A stretch of 64,000 bases of DNA from Halorussus caseinilyticus (GCF_029338395.1 NZ_CP119809.1:1426001-1490000); one strand, 5' to 3'; positions 3,649 to 20,554 are shown, counted from the first letter of the stretch. The notes: generated from the letters alone by a model not told the origin. A program made the numbers and translations.

Positions 3649-3843
3649 CGAACGTAGAAACCGTTCGAAGTCTCTAAGTAAAAAGTTGGCGGGGTGAATC
3701 GAACTCGAAGCTAAGTTTCGGCACGTAAATTGCATTCTCTGGAGTAAATCGAATGCAGATGCTCCCGACCCCGCGCCACCTGCACTGTCGAGTTGGAGTG
3801 CAACGAGCGTCGTGCAGTCGGCCATCGAACTCCCCGCCCGTGG

Positions 3844-4058: not shown

Positions 4059-6785
4059 CTACTCGTCGGTGAAGTCCGCGAGCGATTCGTCCACGCCGAG
4101 CATCTTGAGGTACGTCCCGTCGCCCGTCGCCTCCGCCAGACCCTCGCAGAGTTCCTGTAACTCGTCGGCGTCCCACCGTTCGAGGTAGTCGGCGGTGGAC
4201 TTGTCGTGTTCGTAGCGGTAGCGCAGGAAGTGCGCGCGGTCCAAGTCGGTCAGGTCGCCGTTGTCCTCCTCGACTTTCGTCTGGACGTAGGCCTGTCGTC
4301 GTTCGTCGCGCCAGTCGTAGCGTTCGAAGTCCCCGCCCGCGGAGACGAGTTTCATCTCCTGCATCTGCTCTTCGGAGGCGTCGGAGCGCCGCAGGAGTTT
4401 GCTCAGGTCGTCGTAGGTCGGGTCGGACGCTTCGAGCAAGTCGAGGTACACGTCCTGTTCGCCCACTTCACCGCCTTGGATGATGCCGTAGATTTCCTGT
4501 ACGACCTCCTTGGCTTTCATCGAGTCGCCGCCGCGTCGGACCGCCCCGTGGTGTTTCGAATACTCTTGGAAACACTTGCCCATCTCCACGACGCCGATGT
4601 CGCCGCTGGCGAGTTCGCGGTTGTTCTCCAACGTCTCGCGGGTCTCCTTCGCCGTGCGGACGATGCGCCGCCGGAGGGAGTTCCACGAAATCGGCGTCCG
4701 GTCTTCGACCGGACGCGCGACGATTACGATGTCGAAGGCGACTGCTTCGCCGGTGATGAACTTCGTCAAATCGGAGTTTATCGGATACGTGGCCGTCACT
4801 TCGAAGCCAGTTTCGCAGAGCGATTCGAGCAGTTCGCCCCACGACTCTTCGTCGCTGTGGTGGTAGGTGAACGCCAGCATTCCGTCGTCCTTGAGGGCGC
4901 GGTTGACTACCTCCAGTGCTTGGCCCATCTCGTGTTCGAAGTCCTCGGCGGTCTTGTCGAGGTAGGGGTTCGTGACGATGGATTCGGCTCTCGGGGTCTT
5001 CTCGCGGTCGAATCCGGGGTACTCGTCTTCGAGTAGAATCTTCTGCCAGACGTAGAAGAAATCGGCAACTTCGGAGTAGATGATGTTGTCGTAGTACGGC
5101 GGGTCCGTGATTACCGCATCGTACTCGTCTTCGTCGGTGATGTTGCGCATGTCGCCTTGGTGAACTTCGGAATTCAGGCCGATTGGTTGGGCGAACTCAC
5201 CGGTTTCTTTGGTTTCGCCGTCTTCGATGTGGCGGTCTGTCGGGGCGTTGGCGTACTCGACGCCCTTTTTCACCATATCGAACATGTTAGTGAAGTTGCC
5301 ACGACCGAACTCCGCACCCCACGGATTCCCTTCGATTAAATCGTTCTGCGGAGGGAAAGCCTTCATCCGATGAAGAGCAGACTCAATCTTGTTTGCAGTA
5401 TAGTTATACATAGTCAACAGATTATAGAAAAGGATTGAATCTGTGAGAGCCAGCAGTAGGTAGTCCCTAGCCTCTCCATCAATAGATTCGACCGAACGCA
5501 TCAACTTCGCCAGACAAAGTAACTGCCGCTCGTTGAACATGTCCGTCCAATCTTCTAACCCGTGCTGGAACACGTCGTTTCCGCTCACCGACGACGCCGC
5601 GGTTATCGCACCTTCCGGAATCTCTTCGTCGGGGACGTACTCGTGGAGGTCCGTCCGCGTGTTCCACTCTCGCTTTGCTTCCTCGAAAAGCCGTTTATCC
5701 GCACCCTCCGCTCCTTTGTATCCTTTATAAGAACTCTTCTCTTGACCTCGCTGGTCGCATTCCTCACAGTAGTACTCCACCGCGTAGAGACGGGTATCAG
5801 GTTTCCCCTGTTCCGCAATCCCGTCCGTAATCGACTCCTTCTGCCCGCACTCCGGGCAGTTGTAGTATCCGCCGCGACTCACGTTCCCCTCTTTGGGCAC
5901 CCACTCGTTGCCGCAGTCGTCGCACTCGCTCTCTTCCTGCCAGTCCTCGACTAGCGTGACCGCGCCGCAGTCCGGGCAGAGGCAGTTGTACTTGTCGTCG
6001 TTGTCGTAGCGTCCCGCCGCGACCCGGTAGTCCTTGAACAGGGGGACCGTGTGGCCGCAGGAAACGCAGTCGAGTTCCTTCACCCAGAAGTTGTACATCA
6101 CGTCGGCGTCGTGGCCCTCGTGTCCGGCGTCGGTGTGACCCCCGTCCACGTCGTGGTTCCCGTCGGCGTCACCGTGGGTCGCGTTCGGGCAGGGCGTCCG
6201 GTAGTACTGGGTAATCTCGTCGGCCACGTCGTCGCGGACTCGCTCGAAGGCGCGTTCGAGTTCCGCCACGTCGGTCCCGCCCGCTTCGAGTTCCTTCTTG
6301 GTGACGAACCACGCCACCGGGTTGAGGTCCACGCCCACCGTCTCCGCGCCGAACCGGGAGGCTTCCACCAGCGAGGTTCCCCCGCCCATGAACGGGTCGA
6401 GAATCTTCTTGTCTTTCACCCGCACGTCCTTGGGGTAGAACTCCCACAGCGACTCGGGGTCTTCCATGTCCACGTCCGCAATCTTGCGTTTCAGGTCCTC
6501 GCGGCGACTCCCCGCGCCCCCGAGGGTCTGGTTCCGGCCCGGTTCGTACACCTCGAAGTCCTCGGCGTCCATCTCCTCGTCCAGAAGCGAGTACAGCGAG
6601 ATGGCCCGGAACAGACACCCCGGCCGTCGCGCCCACCACTTGTGCATCGTGTAGATTGGCCGGTAGTACTGCTTGGCCCGACTCTCCTTGGCCGCGATTT
6701 CGTTGACGCGCTCTATCGGAAACCCCTTCTCGATTGGAAGCTGTGTCCGTTCCCCGGACCGCTCGCCGGACTCGTCGTGGGACAT
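4059..6785 (-). CDS. DUF1156-type Zn-ribbon DNA methyltransferase (copy 1)
   Basis: A 908-residue amino-methyltransferase of the DUF1156/COG1743 type, expected to methylate an exocyclic amine (N6-adenine or N4-cytosine) in DNA. The N-terminal DUF1156 signature YTMHKWWARRPG is near residue 45. The SAM motif DPFMGGG is at 130-136 and catalytic DPPYYDN at 561-567. Between them lie Zn-ribbon cysteines C240/C243, C268/C270/C273, C288/C291, C310/C313 and C340/C343. Residues about 429-492 differ sharply from copy 3 although the flanks are nearly identical, and the matching DNA is AT-rich (37% GC over 5401-5460). COG1743 methylases replace PglX in some BREX loci. A His/Asp-rich linker (residues 204-227) is longer than in copy 3. 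Confidence 0.93.
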   Translation of the reverse strand: MSHDESGERSGERTQLPIEKGFPIERVNEIAAKESRAKQYYRPIYTMHKWWARRPGCLFRAISLYSLLDEEMDAEDFEVYEPGRNQTLGGAGSRREDLKRKIADVDMEDPESLWEFYPKDVRVKDKKILDPFMGGGTSLVEASRFGAETVGVDLNPVAWFVTKKELEAGGTDVAELERAFERVRDDVADEITQYYRTPCPNATHGDADGNHDVDGGHTDAGHEGHDADVMYNFWVKELDCVSCGHTVPLFKDYRVAAGRYDNDDKYNCLCPDCGAVTLVEDWQEESECDDCGNEWVPKEGNVSRGGYYNCPECGQKESITDGIAEQGKPDTRLYAVEYYCEECDQRGQEKSSYKGYKGAEGADKRLFEEAKREWNTRTDLHEYVPDEEIPEGAITAASSVSGNDVFQHGLEDWTDMFNERQLLCLAKLMRSVESIDGEARDYLLLALTDSILFYNLLTMYNYTANKIESALHRMKAFPPQNDLIEGNPWGAEFGRGNFTNMFDMVKKGVEYANAPTDRHIEDGETKETGEFAQPIGLNSEVHQGDMRNITDEDEYDAVITDPPYYDNIIYSEVADFFYVWQKILLEDEYPGFDREKTPRAESIVTNPYLDKTAEDFEHEMGQALEVVNRALKDDGMLAFTYHHSDEESWGELLESLCETGFEVTATYPINSDLTKFITGEAVAFDIVIVARPVEDRTPISWNSLRRRIVRTAKETRETLENNRELASGDIGVVEMGKCFQEYSKHHGAVRRGGDSMKAKEVVQEIYGIIQGGEVGEQDVYLDLLEASDPTYDDLSKLLRRSDASEEQMQEMKLVSAGGDFERYDWRDERRQAYVQTKVEEDNGDLTDLDRAHFLRYRYEHDKSTADYLERWDADELQELCEGLAEATGDGTYLKMLGVDESLADFTDE

Positions 6786-6884
6786 GGTGAATGTGTGTCT
6801 ACAAGATAGCTACCGCCCATAAATGTATGCGACATCGCCCCGACGCCCGCGGGCGACTCCCCGCGGTCGGTCCCCGCGATTCCC

Positions 6885-6979
6885 CCGATTCCCGAGACTC
6901 GCCGCCGATTCCCGAGACTCGTTGCCGACTCCCGAGAACCCCGCCGATTCCCCAGAACCCCCCGACTCCCGAGACGCCG
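6885..6979. repeat. Five degenerate 18-20 bp direct repeats
   Basis: Copies of ccga(t/c)tccc(g/c)aga(a/c) begin at about 6885, 6905, 6925, 6944 and 6962. The first two are 20 bp and differ at two positions; the others are 18-19 bp. They lie midway between two divergent starts, so they could be regulator sites or simple slippage products. Confidence 0.75.
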
Positions 6980-7072
6980 AATCGAACGGCGTGCCCTCTC
7001 GCCGGAGACGCCCCGGACCGATGTCGGGTTCGTCGGCCGGTCGAACCCGGAGGGACTTCGACCGGACATGTT

Positions 7073-7082
7073 GTTTTATGAT
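7073..7082 (+). promoter_or_regulatory. TATA-like box of the McrBC-like operon
   Basis: gttttatgat lies 24-33 bp before the ATG at 7106. That is the spacing expected for a leaderless haloarchaeal transcript and indicates that the McrBC pair is transcribed independently of the flanking minus-strand genes. Confidence 0.5.
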
Positions 7083-7105
7083 ACCCCCGCAGAATCCAAC
7101 AGGTA

Positions 7106-8338
7106 ATGAACGAAGGGAAACCGAGATTCGAACGATACGACCGGGAGGAGGCCGAGGAACACAGCCACTACATCACAATCGCTCTGGAGACGGCCAAGGA
7201 GTTCATCGAGAGGACCGAGGACCCGAGCGCACTGGAGTTTCTCGTAGAGGAGCAGAACATCGACACCGACGTACCCGGTGGCGGGACGATAATCAAGAAC
7301 AAACTCCTCACCTCGTCGGTCGCACCCCTCGAAGTCAAACAGACCGTCGCCCAGCGCAATCAGGACTTGGGCGACATCCTCGTCCCCGACACCGTGAAGA
7401 AGAACGCGAAGACGGCCGTGAGCGTCGGCAAGCCCATCGTCCTCTACGGACCCACCGGGACCGGAAAGACCTACTTCGCCAAGCAACTCGCGCTGGAGAC
7501 CTGTATCGACTACTCCATCCACACCGCGACCCCGACGTGGACGCCCGGCGACATCACCGGGAGCATCCAACCCGAGACCGAAGACGGCGAAATCGAGTAC
7601 CGACGCCGCGCGGGGTGCGTCTCACAGGGCATCGAGAAGGCCGACGAGTACGGCGACAACTGGGCGGTCATCGTGGACGAAATCACCCGCGCCGACATCT
7701 CGCAGGTGTTCGGGCCGCTCTACACCGCCATCGAGGACGAGGACCAAGTGGTCTTCCGGAACGACGACGGCGAGAGTCTCACCCTCGACGACGACGTGAA
7801 AATCATCTGCACGATGAACATGTCCGACCGGACGGTGAACGAACTCGACGACGCCATCACCCGCCGGTTCGCGATGATAGAACTCAGTCGGTACGGCGAC
7901 GACGAACGCGCGTCGTTGTTCGACCGCTGGATTGGGGGTCTCGGGTCGGAAGTCGAAATCGACCGCGACGAACTCCGGAGACTCTTCGAGCGCCACCACC
8001 GGGGAATCAACGAGGGCACGACCACGAGTAGCGGGGACGCCATCATGGAGTTCGGGCCGATGCACTACGAGGACGTGACGAAGTTTCTCGCCCACGCCTG
8101 CGCGAGCGACGGTCCCTACGAGGGCGAGCAAGCCACTGCGGTCGGACAGGCGTTCGCCACCTACGTCGCCCCGCGCCTCCTGAACGCGGCCGCACTCCCC
8201 CAAATCAATCGGCTGGCGAGCCATTACGAGACCTTGGACGACCAGTTCGAGGCGTTCGACCTCGGTCCGGCGGTGGACCTCGCGACCCGGCAGGCCGAGG
8301 CCGAAGAGCGCGAGATGGGCGTCAGCGCGTATGAGTGA
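7106..8338 (+). CDS. McrB-like AAA+ ATPase/GTPase
   Basis: A 410-residue AAA+ motor. Walker A GPTGTGKT lies near 115-122, Walker B VIVDEITRA near 188, and MNMSDRT near 236-242. The last fits the MNxxDR signature that separates McrB-type motors from MoxR ATPases. McrB hydrolyses GTP (some relatives ATP) to translocate DNA for cleavage by McrC. The roughly 90 residues before the AAA core do not resemble the modified-base-reading domain of E. coli McrB, so DNA recognition may lie in the partner or in a different N-terminal fold. The gene overlaps the McrC-like gene by 8 bp (ATGAGTGA), indicating tight coupling. It lies opposite in strand to all neighbouring island genes. Confidence 0.9.
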   Translation: MNEGKPRFERYDREEAEEHSHYITIALETAKEFIERTEDPSALEFLVEEQNIDTDVPGGGTIIKNKLLTSSVAPLEVKQTVAQRNQDLGDILVPDTVKKNAKTAVSVGKPIVLYGPTGTGKTYFAKQLALETCIDYSIHTATPTWTPGDITGSIQPETEDGEIEYRRRAGCVSQGIEKADEYGDNWAVIVDEITRADISQVFGPLYTAIEDEDQVVFRNDDGESLTLDDDVKIICTMNMSDRTVNELDDAITRRFAMIELSRYGDDERASLFDRWIGGLGSEVEIDRDELRRLFERHHRGINEGTTTSSGDAIMEFGPMHYEDVTKFLAHACASDGPYEGEQATAVGQAFATYVAPRLLNAAALPQINRLASHYETLDDQFEAFDLGPAVDLATRQAEAEEREMGVSAYE

Positions 8339-10124
8339 GACCCCCCACTACGACTACGGTACCTCCCTCTGTCCCGTCGAGGAGAGCCGGAAACTCGTCG
8401 TCGAGAACTGTCCCGAGACCGTCCGGTCGGAACTTCGCGCCGCGAACTTCGTCCGAGAGGGGAGCAAGTTCGTCAAAAAGCGCCCCAGACTGCGAACCGG
8501 GTCCGGCCGGGACGACGAACCGGACGGGCTTCAGGTCCTCACGGTCCGCGTCGTAGACGACACACTCCACGTTGAACCCGCCGACGTTGTGGGCATGGTG
8601 CGGTTGGTTCCGGGGACGAGCGTCCAAATCGAACCCAAAGTGAAGTGGGAGCACGTCGTTCAGATGTTGCTCACGGTCTACGACATCGACCGAACCCAGT
8701 CGTACTACGGCGTTCCCTTGGACGAGTTGGTCTCGGGCGGCGTCGAGTCTACCCGCATCCTCGCAATCTTGGCGATTAACTACCTCCGCGGCGTCCGGAC
8801 CGTCCGCCGGAAGGGGTTCATCCGGGACCTGAACGTCCGCCGACGGGACGGGTTCGAGGGGTTCGGTTCCGTGGACGTAGAACGGACGCTGATGAACCAC
8901 GCCTCCGGAAACCCCTCGCCCGCGTGGATAGAGACGAACGTCGAGTACGCCAACCCCGTGAACGCCGCGGTCCACATGGCCGGGAAACTCCTCCTCCGGT
9001 TGCTCCAACAGGACCGGGACGGCAACCGACATCCCCGACAGGACCTGCTCGTCTCGATGGTGCATCGGGAAGTCGAACGCATGGAGGAGATGGGAATCGA
9101 GAGCAGTCGGAAGCGAATCGGCGAGTACCGTCGCCTCTCGCTGGGCGACCTGCCGCGACAGCGCCGCTACTACCGGCGCGCGTTCCACACCGCCCAGTCG
9201 ATTCTCGCCTCGACCTTGCTCGGCCAAATCGGAGGCGGTCCCGAGGAACTGCTCGTGGACTACGCGCTCAGCATGGAAACGCTGTTCGAGGACTACTCTC
9301 AGCGAGTCCTGAAGCAGACGGTGAACTCCGTGGGCGACATCGACTACCTGAATCAGCTTTCGTCGGTGGAGTGTAAACACGAACCGTCGCTGTACCCCTT
9401 CGGACGCGACGTGAACAGCTATCACGAACCCGACCATCTCCTCTGTGACGACGGCGAGGCGCTCGCGGTGCTGGACTCGAAGTACTACCGCGAGGGCGAG
9501 AACCCGGCGACCGATTCCGGGCCTCGGTCCCGGATGTTCGCGTACGCCTACCTGACCGACACGGACCGGATGGCGTTTCTCTGTCCCCACCACCGGCCGG
9601 ACCGACTCCCGGTCCGGCAGACCGGCGGGGAAATCCGACTCGTCTCGCCGCGCGAGGACTTCACCTGCGAGGAGTACGAGAACCGCGTCTACGAGTACGT
9701 CTTCGAGACGCTGGCGCTCCGGTATCCGGAACTCCGGATATTCGAGGCCGCGACCGACGACTACCTCTGTCTCAAGGTCACGGACGAGGACCTCTCGAAG
9801 GTCCGCGACCCGAACGGGCCGTTCGGCATCAGCAATCCCGCGACGTTCGCCGACCGCATCATCTCGGCAATCACGTTCTCGTCCTACGGACCGAACAAAC
9901 CCGAGTTGGACCACCAGAGCAGATGGACGAAAGACCGAATCCGGGACGCCTGCGAGAAAACCGACGACGAGGGCCGTCGGACGTATCCCCAACACGAGAC
10001 GACCTGCGTCCCTATCTACGACCCCGACGGCAACGACGACCACGGGACGGTCACGCTCTACTTCCTCGAATCCGGCGACGAGGGCGCTTCGGTCAGCACG
10101 GAGGGACCGTGGGCGCTCATGTGA
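8331..10124 (+). CDS. McrC-like restriction nuclease subunit
   Basis: A 597-residue protein of the McrC/LlaJI group, the nuclease partner of the preceding AAA+ motor. The PD-(D/E)xK site is visible as EPD (D368) followed by VLDSKYY (D382, K384), with further acidic residues upstream near ECKHEPSLY. The region before about residue 330 probably mediates DNA binding and motor contact. McrBC systems cut DNA carrying modified cytosines at two separated sites. The protein is longer than E. coli McrC (about 350 residues), with a C-terminal extension of unknown role beyond about residue 450. It ends 4 bp from the convergent stop of the small gene at 10129. Confidence 0.88.
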   Translation: MSETPHYDYGTSLCPVEESRKLVVENCPETVRSELRAANFVREGSKFVKKRPRLRTGSGRDDEPDGLQVLTVRVVDDTLHVEPADVVGMVRLVPGTSVQIEPKVKWEHVVQMLLTVYDIDRTQSYYGVPLDELVSGGVESTRILAILAINYLRGVRTVRRKGFIRDLNVRRRDGFEGFGSVDVERTLMNHASGNPSPAWIETNVEYANPVNAAVHMAGKLLLRLLQQDRDGNRHPRQDLLVSMVHREVERMEEMGIESSRKRIGEYRRLSLGDLPRQRRYYRRAFHTAQSILASTLLGQIGGGPEELLVDYALSMETLFEDYSQRVLKQTVNSVGDIDYLNQLSSVECKHEPSLYPFGRDVNSYHEPDHLLCDDGEALAVLDSKYYREGENPATDSGPRSRMFAYAYLTDTDRMAFLCPHHRPDRLPVRQTGGEIRLVSPREDFTCEEYENRVYEYVFETLALRYPELRIFEAATDDYLCLKVTDEDLSKVRDPNGPFGISNPATFADRIISAITFSSYGPNKPELDHQSRWTKDRIRDACEKTDDEGRRTYPQHETTCVPIYDPDGNDDHGTVTLYFLESGDEGASVSTEGPWALM

Positions 10125-10128
10125 CCGC

Positions 10129-10524
10129 CTACACCCGGAACGGGACGACCAGCCAACCCGACTTCCGTCTCTTGATTCGGCGACCGAAAATCGGTTCCAG
10201 CGAGTGAAACTCGCCGTCGACTTCCACGTCGAAGGTGTCACCGGCACCTTGGACATCGCCGCCGACGACGAACTGAATCGCCGGAAGCGGGCGTTGACTG
10301 TTGAGGTAGTCCATCTCCCGACGCATCGTCGAGACGAGTCGGTCCCGGCGGTCCTCCTCGCCCGTGAGGACTTCTTCGAGACCGGTCACGCAGATTTCGT
10401 CGGGGAGGTCCCGACTCTCCAACTTGGAGACGAACTCGTCTACGGGCACCCTGTAGTCGGCCGACTCCCACTCGTCGACGACGACGACGTTGTACATCCC
10501 GGCTACCGCGTCGGTGTCACTCAT
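10129..10524 (-). CDS. Small unknown protein of the DUF499/DUF1156 operon
   Basis: A 131-residue soluble acidic protein (begins MSDTDAVAGMYNVVVVDEW) that I do not recognise. It has an alternating beta-rich pattern near residues 11-16 and 80-95 and a basic patch IKRRKSGW near its end, with no cysteine cluster or membrane segment. It starts 35 bp after methyltransferase 2 on the same strand, so it is probably the last gene of the DUF499-methyltransferase operon. Short accessory proteins such as DUF3780 are known beside DUF499/DUF1156 genes; whether this belongs to that family cannot be decided here. Confidence 0.75.
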   Translation of the reverse strand: MSDTDAVAGMYNVVVVDEWESADYRVPVDEFVSKLESRDLPDEICVTGLEEVLTGEEDRRDRLVSTMRREMDYLNSQRPLPAIQFVVGGDVQGAGDTFDVEVDGEFHSLEPIFGRRIKRRKSGWLVVPFRV

Positions 10525-10559
10525 GTCAGTCGGGACGACTCACCGGAGGGTGAAATACG

Positions 10560-13184
10560 TTAGTCCCGGAAGAGGTTCCGGTACTCCTCGTCGCCGGTAC
10601 GCTCGGCGAGGTCGGTCGCAACGTCGATTAGCTCCCCCGTCACCTCGATGTCGCGGCGTTCGTCTATCGGTTCGGTCCTCCGGTCGGCGTCGTAGCGCAG
10701 GAGTTGGACCAGTCCGAGCGCCGACAACTCGTCGCGGGCCTTCCCGCGGAGGTACGAGAGGCGTTCGTCGTCGTCCCACCGGGTCAGTCGAAAGCCGTCG
10801 TCGGCGTCGAACAGCGCCCGGTCGCGGAGGTCCTCGGGGTCGATTTCCGTCCCGCGACAGAGGCGGGTCACGTCCTCGCGCGTGGGGCGGTCCATCGCCG
10901 AGAGTTGGAGGTAGATGTCGTCGGGCGAGACGTTCCCGGCCACGATGTCGTACATCTCGCCGACGACTTCGCCGACGGTCATGACCGACCCGTCGCGGTG
11001 GACTTTCGCGTGGTGTTTGGAGTACTCCCGGAAGCATCGGCCGAGTTCCACGACGCCGATGTCGCCCTCCGAGAGGGTCTGGCCCTCCCGAATCTCGTCT
11101 CGCGCTCGCTTGGCGGCGAGGTGCATCCGTCGTCGAAGCGACGACCAGCTAATCGGTTCGCGGTCCGCGGCGGGTCGGGCGACGACGACGACGCTAAAGC
11201 TGAGTTCGTCGCCCATCACGAAGTCGCTGAGGTTCGCCGAAATCGGGTACGTCGCGGTCACGTCGAATCCCTCCTCGCAGAGCGACCCGAGCAGACTCGC
11301 CCACGACTCCGTTCCGGTGTGTCGGTAGGTGAACGCGAGAACGCCGTCGTCTTTCAACACGTCGCGTATCTTCGAGAACGCTTCGCCGAGTTCCGACTCG
11401 AAGTCGGCGGCGTCCTTGCCGACGGCCGGATTCTCCACGATGCTCTCCTCGCGGGGCGTCGTCTCGGACTCGAAGCAGGGGTACTCGTCGGCCAGAAGCA
11501 GTCGTTGCCAGACGTAAAAGAAGTCCGACACCTCCGAGTAGACGACGTTGTCGTAGTGGGGCGGGTCGGTGATGACCGCGTCGTACTCCGAGTCGAGGGC
11601 AACGTCCCGAACGTCGCCCTGATGGAGCGTGTACTCCCCGCCGACTGGCTTGTCGAAGGGGTCGGTCCGTGCGAGTTCCCCGTCTTCGAGGTGGCGCTCC
11701 GAGGGACTGTCGGCGAACTCGACCGCCTTGCGGATTTTCTCCCACGTGTTCTCGAAGGTGCCCCGTCCCGCGCGCGTCCCCCAGACGTTGTTCTCGGCGT
11801 ACTCGACTCGGGGAGTGAACGAGTTGCGCCGGAAGATGCCCTCGATTTTCGTCCCGGTGACGTTGTAGAGCGCGAAGTCGTTCTGAAACATGAGCGAGTC
11901 GCTGAACGCGACGAGCAGGTACTCCCGAATCGTCCGGTCGTCCACGTCGTCTATCGCCGAGAGCAACGTCGAGAGACAGTAGAGTTGCCGGTCGTTGAAC
12001 ATGTCTCGCCACGTCTCGTACCCGTGACTGAACACGTCGTTGCCGTTTATCGAGGACGACGCGGTAATCGCTCCCTCCGGGATGTCGCCGCGGGGCGCGT
12101 ACTCGTCCAAGTCGTCGGCGGAGTGCCACGCCTCGCTCGCGTCGTCGAACTGGGTACGGTCTCGCTCCGTTGCGGCCTTGTACCCCTTGAACGACGACCG
12201 GTCTCCGCCTTCGTCCTCGCAGTCGGTGCAGTAGTATTCGACGGCGTAGAGGTCCGCCGAATAGGATTGCCCGTCGGCGATGGCGTCCACGAGTGGATAC
12301 TTCAGGCCGCAGGAGGGACACCCGTAGTTGCCCCCGCGCGTCACCGGGCCGTTCGCGGGGACGAACTCGTGGCCGCACTCCGAACAGGTCGAGTCGGTCC
12401 GGTAGTCGTCGGTCAGGAAGACCGACTCGCAGTCGGGACAGAAGACGTTGTACCGGTCGTCGTTCTCGTAGCGTCCCGCCGCGACCCGGTAGTCCTTGAA
12501 GAGTCGAATCGTCTCGCCACAGGAGGTGCAGTCTAGCTTCCGCACCCAGAAGGCGTACATCACGTCTGCGACGTGGCCGTCGTCGTGCGGGCAGGCCGTC
12601 TCGTACTGCGAGCGGAGTTCCTCGGCCACCGACGCTCGAACCTCCTCGAAGGCCTGTTGGAGGTCCTCAACGTCGATTCGGTGGGCTTCGAGCGCTTTCT
12701 TGGTGACGAACCACGAGACGGGATTGAGGTCGATGCCCGTCACGTCCGCGTCGAAACGGACCGCCTCCAAGAGACTCGTCCCGCCGCCTGCGAAGGGGTC
12801 GAGGACGCTCTTTCCTTCGACGCGAACGTCCTTCGCGTAGAGGTCCCAGAGGGCGTCGGGGTCTGTCAGACTCACCGAGTCGAGCAACTGGCCGATGTCG
12901 TCGCCAGCGGAGTCGGCCGAGTCGTCGCCGAAGTCCGAGAGGTCCACGTCCTCGCCGCCCGGTTCGCGGACTTCGACCGTCTCGGGGTCGTCTACCAGCG
13001 AGTAGAGCGAAATCGCCCTGAAGACGCTCCCGAGTCGTCTGGCCCACCACTTGTGGATGGTGGACAGGGGCCGGTAGTGGAGTTTCGCCCGGCCCTCGCG
13101 GTCCGCGAGGTCGTTTACCTGCTCGACGGGGAATCCCCGTTCTATCGGGAGTCGCTCCCGCGAGTCGGGGTCGGAGTCAGACAT
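10560..13184 (-). CDS. DUF1156-type Zn-ribbon DNA methyltransferase (copy 2), DPPH variant
   Basis: An 874-residue paralogue of the other two methyltransferases, but clearly more divergent. The DUF1156 signature STIHKWWARRLG is near residue 46, DPFAGGG at 129-135, and the Zn-ribbon cysteine pairs between about 219 and 322 are retained. Motif IV reads DPPHYDN (540-546) where copies 1 and 3 have DPPYYDN, so the aromatic residue that normally stacks on the flipped base is His. The enzyme could have altered activity or serve as a DNA-binding partner. The gene starts 39 bp after the DUF499 ATPase gene, so the two should be co-expressed, and it is followed by the small unknown gene. Confidence 0.92.
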   Translation of the reverse strand: MSDSDPDSRERLPIERGFPVEQVNDLADREGRAKLHYRPLSTIHKWWARRLGSVFRAISLYSLVDDPETVEVREPGGEDVDLSDFGDDSADSAGDDIGQLLDSVSLTDPDALWDLYAKDVRVEGKSVLDPFAGGGTSLLEAVRFDADVTGIDLNPVSWFVTKKALEAHRIDVEDLQQAFEEVRASVAEELRSQYETACPHDDGHVADVMYAFWVRKLDCTSCGETIRLFKDYRVAAGRYENDDRYNVFCPDCESVFLTDDYRTDSTCSECGHEFVPANGPVTRGGNYGCPSCGLKYPLVDAIADGQSYSADLYAVEYYCTDCEDEGGDRSSFKGYKAATERDRTQFDDASEAWHSADDLDEYAPRGDIPEGAITASSSINGNDVFSHGYETWRDMFNDRQLYCLSTLLSAIDDVDDRTIREYLLVAFSDSLMFQNDFALYNVTGTKIEGIFRRNSFTPRVEYAENNVWGTRAGRGTFENTWEKIRKAVEFADSPSERHLEDGELARTDPFDKPVGGEYTLHQGDVRDVALDSEYDAVITDPPHYDNVVYSEVSDFFYVWQRLLLADEYPCFESETTPREESIVENPAVGKDAADFESELGEAFSKIRDVLKDDGVLAFTYRHTGTESWASLLGSLCEEGFDVTATYPISANLSDFVMGDELSFSVVVVARPAADREPISWSSLRRRMHLAAKRARDEIREGQTLSEGDIGVVELGRCFREYSKHHAKVHRDGSVMTVGEVVGEMYDIVAGNVSPDDIYLQLSAMDRPTREDVTRLCRGTEIDPEDLRDRALFDADDGFRLTRWDDDERLSYLRGKARDELSALGLVQLLRYDADRRTEPIDERRDIEVTGELIDVATDLAERTGDEEYRNLFRD

Positions 13185-13223
13185 GGGTGGCAGTCGTCCC
13201 GTCCTCGTATTTGAACGTACGTA

Positions 13224-16200
13224 TCATTCGAACTGGACCGTCGCGTCGATGTTCGTGGCCGACTCGGGGACGTTCTCCAAGATGTCGGCGACGACTTCGT
13301 GGGACTGGCCCAGTTCGAGTTGGAGGACGGTCTGGGCCTGTTGGAACTCGCCGACTCCTTGGAGTCGGCCGGGTGCCGCGCCGTCGCCGTTCGTGGTGAA
13401 CGACAGCGACCCGTAGGAGACCGACCCGGACTCGTGGGACTCCTGCCACTCCTCGCGCATCTCCGAGGCGCTGTCGCCCTCGTACTCGAAGGTCCACCCC
13501 TCTTCGGGCGGGACGCGGAAGCCAGCGCCGGGGAACCAGTCGCCGGGGTCGTCGGACCCGGTGGCACCGACGACGTAGTGGGGACGCTCCTCGCCGAGGT
13601 TGGCGAGCAGGAAGTGTTCGACCGCGGCCTCGGACTGGTCGGGCGCACACTCGCGCCGAACCGACTGGACCTGAAACGTCTCTTCCTCGTCGAGTTCGCC
13701 GACGAAATTCAGGATGCTGTCGCCGACATCGCCGGGCACCATCGGCGCGACGACGACCGAGGTGGGGTCGCGGTCGCCGAGGGTGCCCACGTAGTCGCCG
13801 CCGGTCTTGAGCCTGTAGCCCTCCGAGAGGAGCGAACTTACCGCGGTGCGGAACGCGGCGGCGGTGTCGTCCTGCGGGAGATGGGTCTCGGTGTCGTTGC
13901 GAATCGTCGTGAGGACCTGACTCGTATCCGCCTCGCCCGCGGCCTCAATCGTCTCCTCGATTCGAGTGCGGACTTCGGTCGGACCAATCGTCTCGGCGTC
14001 CGAAACGTCCCGGAGGGTCGCGTCCGACCGCACCTTGTCGAGGATTTCGTTGCCGCTGACCAAGACGTAGTGGTCGTCGTTGGTCAGTCGCCCGGCGGCC
14101 ATCTTCACGGCGTCCTCGGGGTCTTGGTCGTGAACCCACACGTCGGTCCGCTGGCGGAGGTCGAGTTCGAACGTCGCCAAATCGACTTCCTTGGTCCCCT
14201 CACCGAACCGCCCGCGGAGTTCGGAGACGACTTCCTCGGTAGACCACTTCTCGACTTCGCTCTCCAAGGCGAGTACCGTGTCCCGACTCAGACCGCGAAG
14301 GTCGTCGGTGAAACCGCTCCCGTCGTGTGCGAGGAGGGGTTCGTCCTCCAGTCCGTCCTCGACGGCGTTGACGACTGCGCGGGCGCTTCCGGGGATGGGG
14401 TAGGTCGGTTCCATCAGGAACTGCTCGTAGATTTCGTCTATCGTCGTCTCCGAGCGACTGTCGAGTCGGTCGCTGACGAGACCCCAGACGTGACGCTGAA
14501 GGTCGAAGGGGTCGGCCTCCACCGCGGCGGCGACGTTGCTGGCGTCCAAGACGGGTTCGGCGGCGACGAAGTTCGTCAGCGACATCTCCGCCGCGTAGTC
14601 GAACTCGTTGAGCAAGTCGTCGCCGTCGATGATTTCGCCGTAGGCGCTCTCCAAGCGTTCGAGCAGGTCGTCCTCGTAGTCGTCGTGCAACTCGTCTATC
14701 CTGTCGCGGATTTCCTCGGCCAAGTTCTCGTCTCTCCCGCGGATTTCCGCGCCGATGACCTCCTTGGCCTTCCCGAGGAACTTCTCCTGTTGGGACGACT
14801 GGGAGATGGTCTTGCCGTTCCTCGGTTGGACGAAGACGAGGGTGTTTCGCCACTGGCGGCCAGCGGGTTGGTTCTTGATGACCTCCGCGACGCTATCTTG
14901 GTCCCACGGGCCGTTTTTCACGACGGTCTTGACGTTCTGGCTGTCGGGGACGCTCTCCAGTTCGCCCTCGACGTTGAACCCGACGGCGTGTGCGCCCGCA
15001 CCGAACAGTTTCTCGACGGTTTCGCCGACGAGCGCCATCGCGTCCTCGTCGGGCACGTCGCGGGCGGCGTTCTTCACGAGCGACCGGGGATTCTCGTCCT
15101 CGCGGATGACGTAGCGGTCGTCCGAGCGCCAGAGGTGATACACCTCGCCCTGCAGTCGTTCGAGGTCCACCACGATGTCGTTGATTCGGTCGCCAGCGTG
15201 GTAGGTTCCGAGTACGATGTCGGAGGTGGTCGCGCCCTCCGCGAGTCCGGGGGTCAGCGAGTAGACGAGGACGGTACTCAGGATGGGGCGACCGTAGGTG
15301 ATGTCGGCGTCGGCGAGGCGTTCCCGGATGTCGTCGTAACACCGGTCGGGCCGGGAGTGTTCGACGTTGATTCGGGTGAGTTCGTCGTTGTACTCGACCG
15401 CATCGACTTCGCCGTGGGTCAGCAGGTCGGTGTCTCGGTACTTGTCCACGAGAACTTTGGCGAAGAGATAGAGCATCCCGCGAGTGGCCCCGGACTCGGT
15501 TTCGGCGAAGTAGCGGGTCTTCAGCGAGTCGATGAGGACGGGGTGGAACGGGTAGGTGTCGTACATCTCCTCTCGGAGTCCGTCGGGGAGGTCCACGTAG
15601 TCGGTGTCGGCGTAGGCCTCGACGTAGCGGTCGACCAGCGCGCGCATCGCCGACGGGTCGTCCACCGAATCGACCAATCGGTGGCGCAGTACCTCCCGAA
15701 TATCGACCTGATTGGACATGTTGACCTGCACGCGTTCGGGTTCGCGCGAGAGGATGTCGTGAACGTCCGACCCCTCGCGGAGAACCGAGACGAACGCGAA
15801 CAGGTCTGTGGTCGGCCGAGAAGTCGTCTCGAAAAGCGCCTGTAGGAACCCCCGGTTTGCGTCCTTGCGCCGACCGGACAGCGACCCGAACCAGTCTTCC
15901 AGTTCGTCCATGAAGAACGCGACGGTCCGGTCGCCGACCGCTTCCTGAATCACGTCGATGGAGGGATAGCCGCCGTCCTCGTCGTAGCGTTCCTCGTCGG
16001 GTTCGTAGTCCAAGCGCTCGAACAGCGGTTCCCAGAGGTACTCGTACTGCTCTTTCTGGAGGGAGACGACGATGGGGAGGGCGTCGTCGGGGAGCGCATC
16101 GCCCAGACCCTCGATACGGCCGTCTGCCCAGTCTCCGACGACGCCGGGCGACCGGAAGCAGTGGTAGAGCGCCACCATCTGGTGGGACTTCCCGGTGCCG

Positions 16201-16460
16201 TAGGGACCGTACATCTCGTGGAGGCGGTTGTGGTCCTCCCCCCGGAGGGTGTCCCGAAGTCGCTTCAGCGAGTCCTCCAACCCCCCGGTCAGAAGCGTGC
16301 GGCCGAAGAATCGCTCGGCGTCGGACTCCAAGGTGTCGGCGTCGCTATCGACATCGTAGAGGCGAATCTGGCCCTTGACGAGGCTATCGCCCTCGGTGAG
16401 TTCCGGACTGAGCGTCAGCACGTCGTCGATTGTAGTATCGAGAGTTCCGTCGGCACCCAT
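13224..16460 (-). CDS. DUF499-type large P-loop ATPase (BrxC/PglY-like)
   Basis: A 1078-residue ATPase with Walker A GPYGTGKS at 85-92 and Walker B FFMDELEDW (acidic pair D185-E186). Its size, early P-loop and partnership with DUF1156 methylases fit the DUF499/COG1483 group, related in layout to BrxC/PglY of BREX systems. These ATPases are thought to act as the motor or sensor of a modification-based defence complex; the exact role is unknown. The C-terminal part alternates helical DNA-binding-like segments, and the last about 200 residues are Gly/Ser/acid-rich beta. It heads the operon that continues into methyltransferase 2. A minus-strand TATA-like stretch (ttcataag, near 16490) precedes the ATG at 16460. 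Confidence 0.88.
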   Translation of the reverse strand: MGADGTLDTTIDDVLTLSPELTEGDSLVKGQIRLYDVDSDADTLESDAERFFGRTLLTGGLEDSLKRLRDTLRGEDHNRLHEMYGPYGTGKSHQMVALYHCFRSPGVVGDWADGRIEGLGDALPDDALPIVVSLQKEQYEYLWEPLFERLDYEPDEERYDEDGGYPSIDVIQEAVGDRTVAFFMDELEDWFGSLSGRRKDANRGFLQALFETTSRPTTDLFAFVSVLREGSDVHDILSREPERVQVNMSNQVDIREVLRHRLVDSVDDPSAMRALVDRYVEAYADTDYVDLPDGLREEMYDTYPFHPVLIDSLKTRYFAETESGATRGMLYLFAKVLVDKYRDTDLLTHGEVDAVEYNDELTRINVEHSRPDRCYDDIRERLADADITYGRPILSTVLVYSLTPGLAEGATTSDIVLGTYHAGDRINDIVVDLERLQGEVYHLWRSDDRYVIREDENPRSLVKNAARDVPDEDAMALVGETVEKLFGAGAHAVGFNVEGELESVPDSQNVKTVVKNGPWDQDSVAEVIKNQPAGRQWRNTLVFVQPRNGKTISQSSQQEKFLGKAKEVIGAEIRGRDENLAEEIRDRIDELHDDYEDDLLERLESAYGEIIDGDDLLNEFDYAAEMSLTNFVAAEPVLDASNVAAAVEADPFDLQRHVWGLVSDRLDSRSETTIDEIYEQFLMEPTYPIPGSARAVVNAVEDGLEDEPLLAHDGSGFTDDLRGLSRDTVLALESEVEKWSTEEVVSELRGRFGEGTKEVDLATFELDLRQRTDVWVHDQDPEDAVKMAAGRLTNDDHYVLVSGNEILDKVRSDATLRDVSDAETIGPTEVRTRIEETIEAAGEADTSQVLTTIRNDTETHLPQDDTAAAFRTAVSSLLSEGYRLKTGGDYVGTLGDRDPTSVVVAPMVPGDVGDSILNFVGELDEEETFQVQSVRRECAPDQSEAAVEHFLLANLGEERPHYVVGATGSDDPGDWFPGAGFRVPPEEGWTFEYEGDSASEMREEWQESHESGSVSYGSLSFTTNGDGAAPGRLQGVGEFQQAQTVLQLELGQSHEVVADILENVPESATNIDATVQFE

Positions 16461-16598
16461 GTATGACCGACACCACGAACCGGTCGCTTATGAAACTGCA
16501 TATTCAACCGAGCGTCCCCGGAGAGTACTCGGAGTTTCGGACGTGAGAATTTCGCTTCGCCGAGATTAGCGGCGCGACGCGCGCGACTCCCGACGCCC

Positions 16599-19271
16599 CT
16601 ACCAGTCGCCCTCGGCGAAGGTGGTATCGACGCCGAGCATCTTGAGGTACGTCCCGTCGCCAGTGACCGCGGCGAGGTCCTCGCAGAGTTCCCGCAGGTC
16701 GTCTTCGTCCCACCGGGCGAGGAACTCCTCGCGCGACCGGTCGTGTTCGTAGCGGTAGCGCAGGAAGTGCGCGCGGTCCAAGTCGGTCAGGTCGCCGTCG
16801 TCGCCTTCGACTCTGGTCTGGACGTAGGCTTGGCGCTTCTCGTCGTCCCAGTCGCACAGCAGGAAGTCGCCGTCTTCGACGCGGAACAACTTCATCTCCT
16901 TCATCGCTTCCTCGGAGGCGTCCGAGCGCTTGAGGTGCTTGTTCAGGTCGCTGTAGGAGGGACCGCGCTCCTCGCGCAGGTCGAGGTACACGTCCTGTTC
17001 GCCGCGTTCGCCCTGCTGGATGATGCCGTAGATTTCCTCGACGACTGCCTTGGCGGTCATGGACTCGCCCGCGCGCCGGACCGCGCCGTGGTGCTTGGAG
17101 TACTCTTGGAAGCACTTGCCCATCTCCACGACGCCGATGTCGCCGCTGGCGAGGTCCCGGTTCTCTTCGAGCGATTCGTGGGTCTTCCGGGCGGTTTTGA
17201 CGATGCGCCGACGAAGCCGATTCCACGAGATGGGTTCCCGGTCGTCGGTGGGTCGCGCGACGATAACGATGTCGAACGAGACGGCTTCCCCGCCGATGAA
17301 CTTGTTCAGGTCGGAACTGATGGGGTAGGTAGCCGTCACCTCGAACCCGTTCTCACAGAGCGACTGGAGGAGTTCGCCCCACGACTCCTCGTCGCTGTGG
17401 TGGTAGGTGAACGCCAGCGTCCCGTCGTCTTTCAAGGCGTCGTTGATGACCGAGAGGGCTTGGCCCATCTCGTGTTCGAAGTCCTCGGCGGTCTTGCCGA
17501 GGTAGGGATTCGTCACGATGGACTCCTCGCGGGGCGTCTTCTCGCGGTCGAATCCGGGGTACTCGCCTTCGAGCAGAATCTTCTGCCAGACGTAGAAGTA
17601 GTCGGCCACCTCCGAGTAGATGATGTTGTCGTAGTACGGCGGGTCGGTAATCACCGCGTCGTACTCGTCCTCGGCGGAGATGTTGCGCATGTCGTCTTGG
17701 TAGACCTGCGAGTTCAGACCGATTGGCTTGGCGAACTCGTCGGTTTCGACGGTCTCGCCGTCCTCGACGTGTCGCTCGGTGGGGGCGTTGGCGTACTCGA
17801 CGCCTTTCTTGACCATCTCGAACATTGCAGTGAACGTTCCTCGTCCGAACCTTGTCCCCCAAACGTTGTTCTCTGCGGGGTACATTGGAGGGTCGAATGC
17901 GTTTGTTCGGAATATGTGGTCCATACCGTTTCTGGTCGGGTCATACGAGGTCATCATACAGTTCGTCCGAAGAGCATCAGAGAAAGCTGTGAGAAGATGC
18001 TCTTTTAAATCCCGGTCGGATACACGACCGATGGCCTGTAGGAGTTTACTCAGACACAGTAGCTGACGCTCGTTGAACATGTCCGTCCACTCTTCATACC
18101 CGTGGTCGTCAACTGGATTTCGTTCGACAGTCATGTGCCCCGGCGGAATTTCCTCGTCCGGGACGTACTCGTGGAGGTCTGTCCGCGTGTTCCACTCTCG
18201 CTTTGCTTCCTCGAACAGTTGCTTGTCGGCCGCCTCCGCCTTTTTGTACCCCTTATAAGAACTCTTCTCTAGACCCTGCTGGTCGCAGTCCTCGCAGTAG
18301 TACTCCACCGCGTAGAGTCGCAGGTCGTAGCCGTCCTGTTCGGCAATCCCGTCCGTGATGGCCTCCTTCTGCCCGCACTCCGGACAGTTGTAGTATCCGC
18401 CGCGACTCACGTTCCCGTCCTCCGGAACCCACTGGTTTCCGCACTCGTTGCACTCGCTGTCGTCCTGCCAGTCTTCGACCAGCGTCACCGCGCCGCAGTC
18501 CGGGCAGAGGCAGTTGTACTGGTCGTCGTTCTCGTAGCGACCTTTCGCCACCCGGTAGTCCTTGAACAGCGGAACCGTGTGCCCGCACGAGACGCAATCT
18601 AACTCCTTCACCCAGAAGTTGTACATCACGTCGGCGTCGTGGTCCTCCCGGCCGTCGTGGTCGGCGTTGGGACACGGCGTCCGGTAGTACTGGGTAATCT
18701 CGTCGGCCACGTCGTCGCGGACTCGCTCGAAGGCGCGTTCGAGTTCCGCCACGTCCGTCTCCCCGGCGTCGAGTTCCTTCTTGGTGACGAACCACGCCAC
18801 CGGGTTGAGGTCCACGCCGACCGACTCCGCGCCGAAGCGCGAGGCTTCCACCAGCGAGGTGCCGCCGCCAGCGAAGGGGTCGAGAATCTTCTTGTCCGCC
18901 ACGCGAACGTCCTTGGGGTAGAACTCCCACAGCGACTCCGGATTCTCCATGTCCACCTCGCCGATTGCGTCCACGAGGTCCGCCGCGTCGAGTCCGTTGG
19001 TGCCGAGTTGCTGGTTCCGACCGGGTTCGTACACCTCGACATCCTCGACGCTCGTCTCGTCGTCCAGAAGCGAGTAGAGCGAGATGGCCCGGAACAGACA
19101 CCCCGGCCGTCGCGCCCACCACTTGTGCATCGTGTAGATTGGCCGGTAGTACTGCTTCGCTCGGCCCTCCTTGGCGGCGATTTCGTTGACGCGCTCTATC
19201 GGAAACCCGCGTTCGATGGGCAGTCCCGTCCGCCCCGCCGCCGACTCGTCGGCGTGTTCCTGCTCAGACAT
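16599..19271 (-). CDS. DUF1156-type Zn-ribbon DNA methyltransferase (copy 3)
   Basis: An 890-residue close paralogue of copy 1. It has YTMHKWWARRPG near residue 46, DPFAGGG at 131-137, DPPYYDN at 543-549, and the same series of CxxC pairs in between. I chose the ATG at 19271 because the MSEQEHADES start aligns with copy 1 and a strong TATA box lies just upstream; the frame stays open to 19457, but that part has no homologous counterpart. Residues about 411-474 differ from copy 1 while both flanks match closely, and the DNA there is AT-richer (47% GC over 17941-18000). It probably methylates a different target. It lies 138 bp upstream of the DUF499 gene on the same strand. Confidence 0.93.
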   Translation of the reverse strand: MSEQEHADESAAGRTGLPIERGFPIERVNEIAAKEGRAKQYYRPIYTMHKWWARRPGCLFRAISLYSLLDDETSVEDVEVYEPGRNQQLGTNGLDAADLVDAIGEVDMENPESLWEFYPKDVRVADKKILDPFAGGGTSLVEASRFGAESVGVDLNPVAWFVTKKELDAGETDVAELERAFERVRDDVADEITQYYRTPCPNADHDGREDHDADVMYNFWVKELDCVSCGHTVPLFKDYRVAKGRYENDDQYNCLCPDCGAVTLVEDWQDDSECNECGNQWVPEDGNVSRGGYYNCPECGQKEAITDGIAEQDGYDLRLYAVEYYCEDCDQQGLEKSSYKGYKKAEAADKQLFEEAKREWNTRTDLHEYVPDEEIPPGHMTVERNPVDDHGYEEWTDMFNERQLLCLSKLLQAIGRVSDRDLKEHLLTAFSDALRTNCMMTSYDPTRNGMDHIFRTNAFDPPMYPAENNVWGTRFGRGTFTAMFEMVKKGVEYANAPTERHVEDGETVETDEFAKPIGLNSQVYQDDMRNISAEDEYDAVITDPPYYDNIIYSEVADYFYVWQKILLEGEYPGFDREKTPREESIVTNPYLGKTAEDFEHEMGQALSVINDALKDDGTLAFTYHHSDEESWGELLQSLCENGFEVTATYPISSDLNKFIGGEAVSFDIVIVARPTDDREPISWNRLRRRIVKTARKTHESLEENRDLASGDIGVVEMGKCFQEYSKHHGAVRRAGESMTAKAVVEEIYGIIQQGERGEQDVYLDLREERGPSYSDLNKHLKRSDASEEAMKEMKLFRVEDGDFLLCDWDDEKRQAYVQTRVEGDDGDLTDLDRAHFLRYRYEHDRSREEFLARWDEDDLRELCEDLAAVTGDGTYLKMLGVDTTFAEGDW

Positions 19272-19302: not shown

Positions 19303-19314
19303 CTATTTAAAAAG
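19303..19314 (-). promoter_or_regulatory. TATA box of methyltransferase 3
   Basis: Read on the minus strand it is ctttttaaatag, about 32 bp before the ATG at 19271. It is the clearest promoter of the island and supports the shorter start. A small hairpin (ccct/aggg arms) lies between it and the gene. Confidence 0.55.
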
Positions 19315-19447
19315 TGCGTCCCCGCTCCGGACGACAGCGTTCGGGGGCGCAGACGGGACTGGACGACCCGTCTCGAAGGCCCGCCGTCGCCGTCGTCTCG
19401 ACCCACTGCTGGACGGTCCCGCGCTCCGCGATGTAGGGAACGGAAAC

Positions 19448-19469
19448 CCGTTCTCAAACATAACTATAC
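19448..19469 (-). repeat. Right member of the degenerate 22-bp inverted pair
   Basis: The reverse complement of this segment matches 3978-3999 at 18 of 22 positions. It lies about 180 bp outside the start of methyltransferase 3, mirroring the left copy, which lies about 60 bp outside the end of methyltransferase 1. Confidence 0.35.
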
Positions 19470-19633
19470 GGAGCCTAAAGAATTGTATATCTATGTTATA
19501 GACTGATTTCGATGTCTCTACGCCGAGGGCGCGGACGCCGAGCGAGCGCCGAACGCCGAGTGAGCGCCGACCCGCCGAGGTGTCGGCCACCGAAGTGGAA
19601 AGATTCCAATACTCGCGTTCGTACACTCGGACG

Positions 19634-20554
19634 ATGGACCTCCCACTCGACCCGACGGAGAACGACGCACCACCGCAGGAACTCGTCCGAAGGCTTCCCT
19701 CGCAGGCGGCGCGCCGCCGCGTCCTCCGGGCGGCCGACGTATCCATCGACGTTGACGACCGGAACTTCGCCGAGACGCTAGACGAACTCTCGCAAATCCA
19801 ACTCCGGCGGGCGGCGTCCCAACTCCGCTTCGCGGGAGCGCGGACCGTCTACTACTACCGAATCGACGGCCTGCGTCGGGTCTCCCCCGACGGTGCGACC
19901 GGACCGACCGGCGACGTGGGGTCGCCCGGCGCGTACGGTCCCGAGGTCCAGACCGCCGTCAGGGACCACGACCGAATCTACGTGGTCTGCAACGTCCCCG
20001 AGACCGGAACCCAGACGCAACTGACGCTCTCGAAGGAGAACCGGCCCACGACCGTCGCTACCTTCGAACCGGGCACGGACCTGCTGGCGGTCCGCGCGCC
20101 CGACGACGGCACCGCGGACGCGACTGTCCGGGCCGTGACGCGGTATCTCGACGCCGACGGCGCGACCCGCGTCTCGTTCCTCGACGGCGGATTCCGCGGG
20201 CGCTTCGAGGACGCCTGCGTGGACGGCTATTCGACGCTCCGGCTTCGAAACACCAACGCGGGGGACAACACGCGGGAGATAGAAGTCCGCTCGGAGGAGT
20301 CCGACGACGGGCGAGTCTCGGACGTTCGCCACGACGCTATCGTCCGGACCCTGCTTCGGCGCGGCGACTGCGAAATCGACGCCGCGACGGGACTCGTCAC
20401 CGTCGCCGACGACGCCGCGACGGACCGCGACGACTCCCCGCGCCGACGGGTGACGATTGGGTTCCCCGACGGCCGCGTCACCTTCGACCAGTTCGTCCCC
20501 GAGCGAGTGCTGATTCGATTCGACAACGTTGTGCGAACGTCGCTGAGACGGTGA
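19634..20554 (+). CDS. Unknown haloarchaeal protein
   Basis: A 306-residue acidic, probably cytosolic protein that I do not recognise. An N-terminal helical part contains two short arginine-rich stretches (AARRRVLRAA, then IQLRRAASQLRF), followed by beta-rich segments. It has no signal peptide, membrane helix, cysteine pair or obvious catalytic motif. I took the ATG at 19634; an in-frame GTG at 19580 would add 18 residues, but the AT-rich stretch at 19600-19612 fits a promoter for a leaderless transcript. It is the first gene outside the island and is followed by a tRNA. Confidence 0.7.
   Translation: MDLPLDPTENDAPPQELVRRLPSQAARRRVLRAADVSIDVDDRNFAETLDELSQIQLRRAASQLRFAGARTVYYYRIDGLRRVSPDGATGPTGDVGSPGAYGPEVQTAVRDHDRIYVVCNVPETGTQTQLTLSKENRPTTVATFEPGTDLLAVRAPDDGTADATVRAVTRYLDADGATRVSFLDGGFRGRFEDACVDGYSTLRLRNTNAGDNTREIEVRSEESDDGRVSDVRHDAIVRTLLRRGDCEIDAATGLVTVADDAATDRDDSPRRRVTIGFPDGRVTFDQFVPERVLIRFDNVVRTSLRR

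Follow-up and report, generated by a model that had tools for sequence, protein, structure and literature searches.

BREX and related systems are widespread, and which of their parts destroys viral DNA is debated. The stretch of Halorussus caseinilyticus DNA analysed here (64,000 nucleotides, GCF_029338395.1 NZ_CP119809.1:1426001-1490000; hereafter the window) raises this question in a particular form, with three DUF1156 methylases, one DUF499 ATPase and, on the opposite strand, a McrB/McrC pair, all named in the original prediction and confirmed by Pfam. The textbook role of McrBC is that of a Type IV enzyme cutting modified DNA. What, then, is such a pair doing amid genes that modify DNA? 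The answer that we consider rather probable is that the locus encodes a haloarchaeal variant of the DUF499-centred BREX-related (BR) systems, whose dedicated McrBC pair takes the place that PglZ, or a nuclease fused to the helicase, has in other BR systems.

Gene content and boundaries of the locus

Positions are counted from the first letter of the window.

-544 to 640 (L008:3456-4640), minus strand: O394, 394 aa, putative RapA/BrxHII-like C-terminal helicase module (AF2 model) with a zinc-ribbon end
633-2390, minus strand: HEL, 585-aa SNF2 helicase core (Pfam SNF2-rel_dom, 2.5e-34), overlapping O394 by 8 bases
2467-3825, minus strand: Fic/Doc-family protein with a C-terminal HTH; variable cargo, not core
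4059-6785, minus strand: MTA, DUF1156 DNA methyltransferase (Pfam; motif I DPFMGGG, motif IV DPPY)
5310-5510, minus strand: predicted target-recognition segment of MTA (aa ~425-492), replaced relative to MTC (blastn break)
7106-8338, plus strand: McrB-like AAA+ GTPase subunit (AAA_5; Walker A/B, NxxD signature MNMSDR)
8331-10124, plus strand: McrC-like PD-(D/E)XK endonuclease subunit (PF10117; motif PDH...LDSKYY)
10129-10524, minus strand: O131, 131-aa alpha/beta protein between MTB and McrC, recognised by conservation; candidate inactive STAND/AAA (BrxB/BrxF-like) subunit
10560-13184, minus strand: MTB, DUF1156 methyltransferase in the canonical slot after D499 (Pfam; motif IV altered to DPPH)
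13224-16460, minus strand: D499, DUF499 AAA+ ATPase, 1,078 aa (PF04465; Walker A GPYGTGKS, Walker B MDE)
16599-19271, minus strand: MTC, DUF1156 methyltransferase, close MTA paralogue with another target-recognition segment (Pfam, homology)

All three methylases exceed the Pfam cut-off for DUF1156 (41.3, 37.4 and 43.1 bits for MTA, MTB and MTC against 24), as D499 does for PF04465 (38.2 bits, cut-off 23) and the McrC-like protein for PF10117 (26.2 bits, cut-off 23.9). The mechanical ORF start of MTC is 19457, and homology starts at the ATG at 19271. HEL, O394 and O131 are linked genes beyond those first recognised, and the borders originally drawn for the island (4059-19271) fall short on the left, where HEL and O394 are cut off. 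O394 is itself split by the edge of the window, and its remainder was read from the genome contig. Three reading frames were set aside: ORF 6823-8031 (plus strand) and a minus-strand ORF across McrC (8322-10256) were rejected as shadow frames with no family match, and O147 (19303-19746) is not counted as a gene, having no family match, a basic composition and one chance-like match elsewhere.

Beyond O394 lie queD, queE and queC, of archaeosine-pathway type. The stretch from queE-queD to a tRNA-Glu gene measures about 6.6, 7.8, 10, 21 (here) and 43 kb in related genomes, and this very different spacing among congeners marks the island (window 1-20700; L008:2135-3369) as a variable site. No repeats of at least 15 bases that would mark integration were found at its edges. 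Cargo also varies: the Fic gene present here (window 2467-3825) is sporadic in other loci, the Haloglomus halophilum locus (L146:18347-24486) contains an HNH endonuclease and a DUF262 protein, and that of Natronorubrum bangense (L145:27443-29302) a DUF4143 ATPase. Such differences between loci point to a slot in which accessory defence genes are carried as cargo.

Conservation and linkage across haloarchaea

Our survey covered 391 haloarchaeal genomes, one per species, in which D499, McrC and HEL were searched separately and then matched by position. A DUF499 protein similar to D499 occurs in 78 of these genomes. Clades I and II are two related groups that together comprise 59 D499 loci, with 58-100% and 45-54% identity, respectively, to the D499 of the window; clade III consists of 29 much more distant DUF499 matches, at about 30%. 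Because the fetched loci L039-L098 and L100-L144 come partly from the same strains, counts are limited to the 59-locus set.

McrC lies within 40 kb of D499 in 55 of the 59 clade I/II loci, on the opposite strand in every one of these 55, and HEL is found at 56 of the 59; one more McrC sits on another small contig of a D499-bearing genome (G364). None of the 29 clade III matches is near this McrC or HEL family. At the level of genomes, co-occurrence gives a Fisher p of about 3e-59, a figure inflated by shared ancestry, and the association is far beyond chance. Plasmids repeat the pattern, in that PLSDB holds McrC on 11 of 12 records with a D499 of the clade I/II type, and such a D499 on 11 of 11 records with McrC. 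The prevailing order is D499-MT-O131-(-McrC)-(-McrB), with HEL-O394 close by; hardly any clade I/II locus lacks O131, and 28 of 34 loci retain the 8-base HEL/O394 overlap. Among the carriers are Haloarcula vallismortis, Haloferax elongans, Natronorubrum bangense and species of Halorubrum and Halosimplex. The same gene set, sought elsewhere as the original prediction had proposed, is thus directly established in its content, order and co-inheritance; these genes form one system, and the independent occurrence without conserved order that was to speak against it is ruled out.

Divergence follows linkage. When identity matrices are compared over 22 complete clade II loci, those of D499, HEL, O394, McrB and McrC correlate with one another (r 0.51-0.96, p<=0.011), that is, the ATPase, the helicase and McrBC diverge together. 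The pair was originally taken for an inserted extra; a component that is near-constant and co-diverges with ATPase and helicase does not fit that description. D499 occurs without McrBC in three small lineages. One McrBC-free sublineage, represented by a Halosegnis marinus plasmid (L148:18879-20648; related G229/L081), carries a 589-aa SF1 helicase (AAA_11/AAA_12) downstream of O131, on the usual side of McrBC, which is a possible alternative effector.

PglZ, O131 and the second DUF499 clade

As first predicted, the locus has no pglZ: none was found near it or just outside the left edge of the window, and the best PglZ match in the genome, about 0.9 Mb distant, does not reach the cut-off. The relatives that do have PglZ are the clade III loci, which are Type-3 BR systems. 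In each of the eight clade III loci fetched, D499 and MT flank a PglZ-like protein of about 300 aa, called by similarity to a pHLAC01 protein (E 5e-145 to 7e-24) that itself matches the PglZ domain weakly (E 0.02); the Pfam PglZ model also matches, with low scores, a neighbour of the same size in several other clade III genomes. This pHLAC01-type PglZ is in none of the clade I/II loci. In a tree of D499, which has long branches, McrBC loci and PglZ loci form two clades with 100/100 support each, and the four label changes needed are consistent with McrBC having been gained once and lost three times.

The haloarchaeal Type-3 order is D499-PglZ-MT-O131, with a remote homologue of O131 following the methylase, and O131 is homologous to a small gene at the matching place in the PglZ-bearing loci. 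O131 has no Pfam or PADLOC match and no Foldseek match at E <= 0.001. The best structural matches of its AF2 model (pLDDT 90) are AAA+/P-loop domains, at weak scores (Z 3.8-5.4); Walker motifs are missing from the protein, whose central strands are followed by additional ones; the iSTAND subunit has been described in such terms. On this model O131 is a candidate inactive STAND/AAA (iSTAND, BrxB/BrxF-like) subunit.

Certain Type-3 BR loci have both PglZ and, close by, another McrBC of the MTaX1 type. McrBC "replacing" PglZ is thus not the sole relation between the two, and effectors may be used in layers rather than exchanged. On a Haladaptatus salinisoli plasmid (L151:8027-12518), a PglZ-type DUF499 locus stands beside a 1060-aa EVE-domain McrB-like AAA protein, together with a gene that has a weak McrC match.

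Exchange among the methylases

The methylases depart from the common pattern of divergence. Across the 22 clade II loci their identity matrix is uncorrelated with those of the other components (r -0.01 with D499 to 0.23 with McrC, p>0.1): methylases are exchangeable, and their divergence is independent of the ATPase, the helicase and McrBC. The most variable stretch of the protein is aa 341-540, upstream of motif IV. DNA identity between MTA and MTC is 81-82% on either side of a 200-bp gap without a blastn alignment (MTA nt 1276-1475), and other methylase pairs have 92% identity in the flanks against 47% in the segment. A segment with a predicted role in target recognition has, by this comparison, been replaced between MTA and MTC.

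Several methylases do accompany one ATPase, as originally observed, with two or three per locus in clade I (nine of nine intact relatives, and the window). As a mark of the system the number does not serve, being a trait of this subclade; in clade II, 36 of 37 loci have one within the stretch fetched. In clade I, MTB holds the canonical slot and differs from the other methylases in its C-terminal part. DPPY is kept in 57 of 60 methylases, and the three exceptions are all of the MTB type (DPPH in the window, DLPF in G315, HPPY in G346). To judge from these motifs, MTB in the canonical slot may be losing or changing its activity where extra methylases are present. The idea of MTB as an inactive reader in general was rejected, DPPY being retained in 7 of 10 MTB sequences.

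The order of motif I, recognition segment and DPPY is that of alpha-class m6A enzymes. This order and DPPY make the m4C chemistry first suggested unlikely, and, with the family named as N6-adenine methyltransferases (PMC12839542), the DUF1156 product is likely to be m6A.

A helicase probably split in two genes

The DEAH motif of HEL is kept in 34 of 34 sequences, and by Pfam the protein is a bare SNF2 core that ends after the helicase core. Most structural matches of the O394 model (AF2, built with 27 relatives; pLDDT 86) cover a coiled coil of about 90 residues alone. RapA is the only family that aligns over most of it (8so8, 8t0l, 6bog and 8spg; 232-239 residues, Z 9.2-9.9, rmsd 5.5-7.1); it was not among the best Foldseek rows and emerged from a second structural comparison, in which the alignment runs to the C-terminus of RapA, residue 967/968. 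BrxHII and BR helicases have the RapA layout, including a C-terminal module with long coiled-coil helices (PMC12839542). Given this layout and the fit of O394 to RapA, HEL and O394 read as a single RapA/BrxHII-like BR helicase in two overlapping, translationally coupled genes. The helicase has no Pfam match to a PLD/HKD nuclease, and O394 has no conserved D/E-X-K motif; the split helicase, as far as its motifs indicate, carries no active nuclease domain.

A sister family of SNF2 helicases (53-58% identical) occurs at L153:4601-12655, L154:8522-13674, L155, L160 and L161, where its partner is an O394-like protein of greater length (676-1125 aa) and this DUF499 is absent. At L153 the sister helicase faces another McrB/McrC pair. 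Such pairs are possibly a further undescribed defence family.

The McrB/McrC pair and its possible roles

Catalytic motifs are intact throughout: the McrC motif PDH...DSK in 45 of 45 homologues, the Walker A, Walker B and NxxD signature of McrB in 43 of 43, and Walker B of D499 in 52 of 52. Solved McrB structures are the closest structural matches of the McrB-like protein. No modified-base reader domain was detected in it, the Pfam and PADLOC searches giving AAA matches only, and the original suggestion that McrBC cuts DNA with foreign modification is unsupported.

The same genome has a second locus of interest, 39 kb left of the window (G000:C1:1381002-1387349; L007:3002-6497; L003), where its fourth DUF1156 methylase (921 aa) is followed by a 663-aa MTaX1 + AAA_5 (McrB-like) protein and then by a 503-aa protein without a Pfam match in the McrC position. 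This locus resembles a minimal methylase-McrBC system without DUF499, and relatives of the pair lie inside some DUF499 loci (L048, L049, L059, L076). A separate DUF1156-McrB-McrC-like array in the same genome supports a functional link between DUF1156 methylases and McrBC.

How might the parts work together? DUF1156 methylases would mark sites on the cell's own DNA, probably with m6A. The DUF499 ATPase, the split helicase and O131 would survey or translocate DNA and, where the marks are missing, the complex would engage McrB, which would drive the McrC nuclease. The methylases would act as exchangeable specificity subunits and, since one subclade has two or three, a single ATPase/nuclease set may serve several target sequences. 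An antiviral role is probable for the system, whose components we infer to cooperate physically, with McrBC cleaving unmarked DNA. The fullest form of the proposal, a McrBC turned into a nuclease against unmethylated DNA, with interchangeable methylases and several self-marks read at once, we put forward tentatively, as somewhat short of an even chance.

The main rival holds that the BR core restricts unmodified DNA alone and that the McrBC linked to it serves as a Type IV backup against foreign modification, the linkage being kept as each layer covers the gap of the other. Transcription from the opposite strand in 55 of 55 loci agrees with it, as does the promoter-like element of the pair: a TATA-like TTTTAT lies about 30 bp upstream of the McrB start, and a separate McrBC promoter, as predicted from this element, is plausible. 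McrBC, transcribed from the other strand, is possibly a separately regulated partner. Extra nucleases are frequent in BR loci (PMC12839542), and McrBC beside other restriction systems is a known theme (PMC11090510). This division of labour would, however, leave the core without a nuclease, there being none in HEL or O394 and no PglZ, and would give the backup role to a McrB without a detected reader domain. Unlike the variable cargo, moreover, McrBC is nearly always there and diverges in step with D499 and HEL, and loci free of it are rare. We regard two independent layers as unlikely.

McrBC could also be a post-segregational or abortive device that attacks the host chromosome when the methylase or core is lost or inhibited, and so guards against anti-restriction. 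Tight linkage and opposite-strand expression would suit such a device, and backup suicidal effectors have been proposed for BREX/BR systems (PMC12839542); yet the missing core nuclease would go unexplained, and no toxin-like or inhibitor-sensing domain was found, which makes this account improbable. Least credible of all is a chance neighbourhood of unrelated systems, for although defence islands gather systems, and the Fic gene here and the HNH/DUF262 genes of relatives vary, it is refuted as a general account by 55/59 linkage in fixed relative orientation over many genera and replicons, by co-divergence, and by the single D499 clade.

We therefore return to a BR variant with a dedicated McrBC. 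That a natural lineage has McrBC in the place of a missing PglZ argues for that position being an effector slot and, if the reading is true, McrBC here does the reverse of what textbooks assign to it. Target choice could be studied on the natural pairs that methylase swaps and segment replacement offer, in a system common in culturable haloarchaea (Haloferax, Haloarcula, Halorubrum).

Comparison with known systems

DUF499-centred systems were noted in 2013, with DUF499 likened to McrB by analogy (PMC3710099); a DUF499-centred archaeal operon was noted in 2020 (PMC7641849), Hma was named in 2021 (PMC8565338), and BR systems were classified as Types 1-3 in 2026 (PMC12839542), in a paper whose main text nowhere has Mcr. 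The system, a candidate new one in the original prediction, is not categorically new, for its core is that of the known DUF499-centred BREX-related/Hma family (PMC12839542; PMC8565338), including a DUF1156 methyltransferase with a recognition insert before motif IV, a BR feature.

Closest in layout is Type-3 BR (PMC12839542), which shares the DUF499 ATPase, the DUF1156 methylase, a helicase without a fused nuclease, and the D499-MT-O131 order with an O131-family small protein after the methylase. It differs in having PglZ, a near-universal hallmark there that is absent here, whereas the present system has McrBC, a helicase split in two genes and a D499 in its own well-supported clade. Hma/Type-1 BR (PMC8565338, PMC12839542) shares the helicase, DUF1156 methylase and DUF499-type ATPase, and the best PADLOC matches are HmaB for the methylases and HmaC for the ATPase; but the REase-helicase fusion is lacking here, the full-length HmaA architecture was not seen, and O131 and McrBC are extra. 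As a standalone nuclease lies in the vicinity of Hma/Type-1 BR in about 21% of taxa (PMC12839542), McrC could be one of these. The Type-2 feature of an HKD nuclease at the helicase N-terminus is absent, and DUF3780, also of Type 2, had no match in the genome, in a search whose control likewise matched nothing anywhere.

The archaeal COG1743-DUF499-SWI2/SNF2-nuclease operon (PMC7641849) shares methylase, DUF499 and SNF2 helicase, but its helicase forms a fusion with a nuclease of PD-(D/E)XK or PLD type and has a link to EVE proteins, whereas McrC is a separate nuclease here. Frequent links of McrBC to DNA methyltransferases and DISARM-like genes are stated in PMC11090510, which defers the details; an NxxD-type McrB and McrC beside DNA methyltransferases are common to both, but the text consulted describes no DUF499, DUF1156 or haloarchaeal system. 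E. coli McrBC has the same McrB GTPase signature and McrC PD-(D/E)XK motif, and differs in that the McrB of the window, without a detected modified-cytosine reader, is embedded in a methylase system.

Ordinary BREX, with PglZ and a BrxC-type ATPase, was rejected, as there is no PglZ near the locus. Neither DrmA (YprA helicase) nor DrmB (DUF1998) of DISARM is among the genes scanned, a set that takes in part of the small ORFs, in line with the original report of no drm gene, and the SNF2 gene is far below the DrmD cut-offs (280 bits against 610). Our literature searches, which covered few subscription papers, returned nothing on COG1743 with COG1483, no description of this system under DUF499 with McrBC, and none of the combination of D499, DUF1156 and McrBC. 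As the combination is not described in the literature searched, we file the system as a BR variant rather than under a numbered type; it is best read as BR by its core and outside Types 1, 2 and 3, a new haloarchaeal variant.
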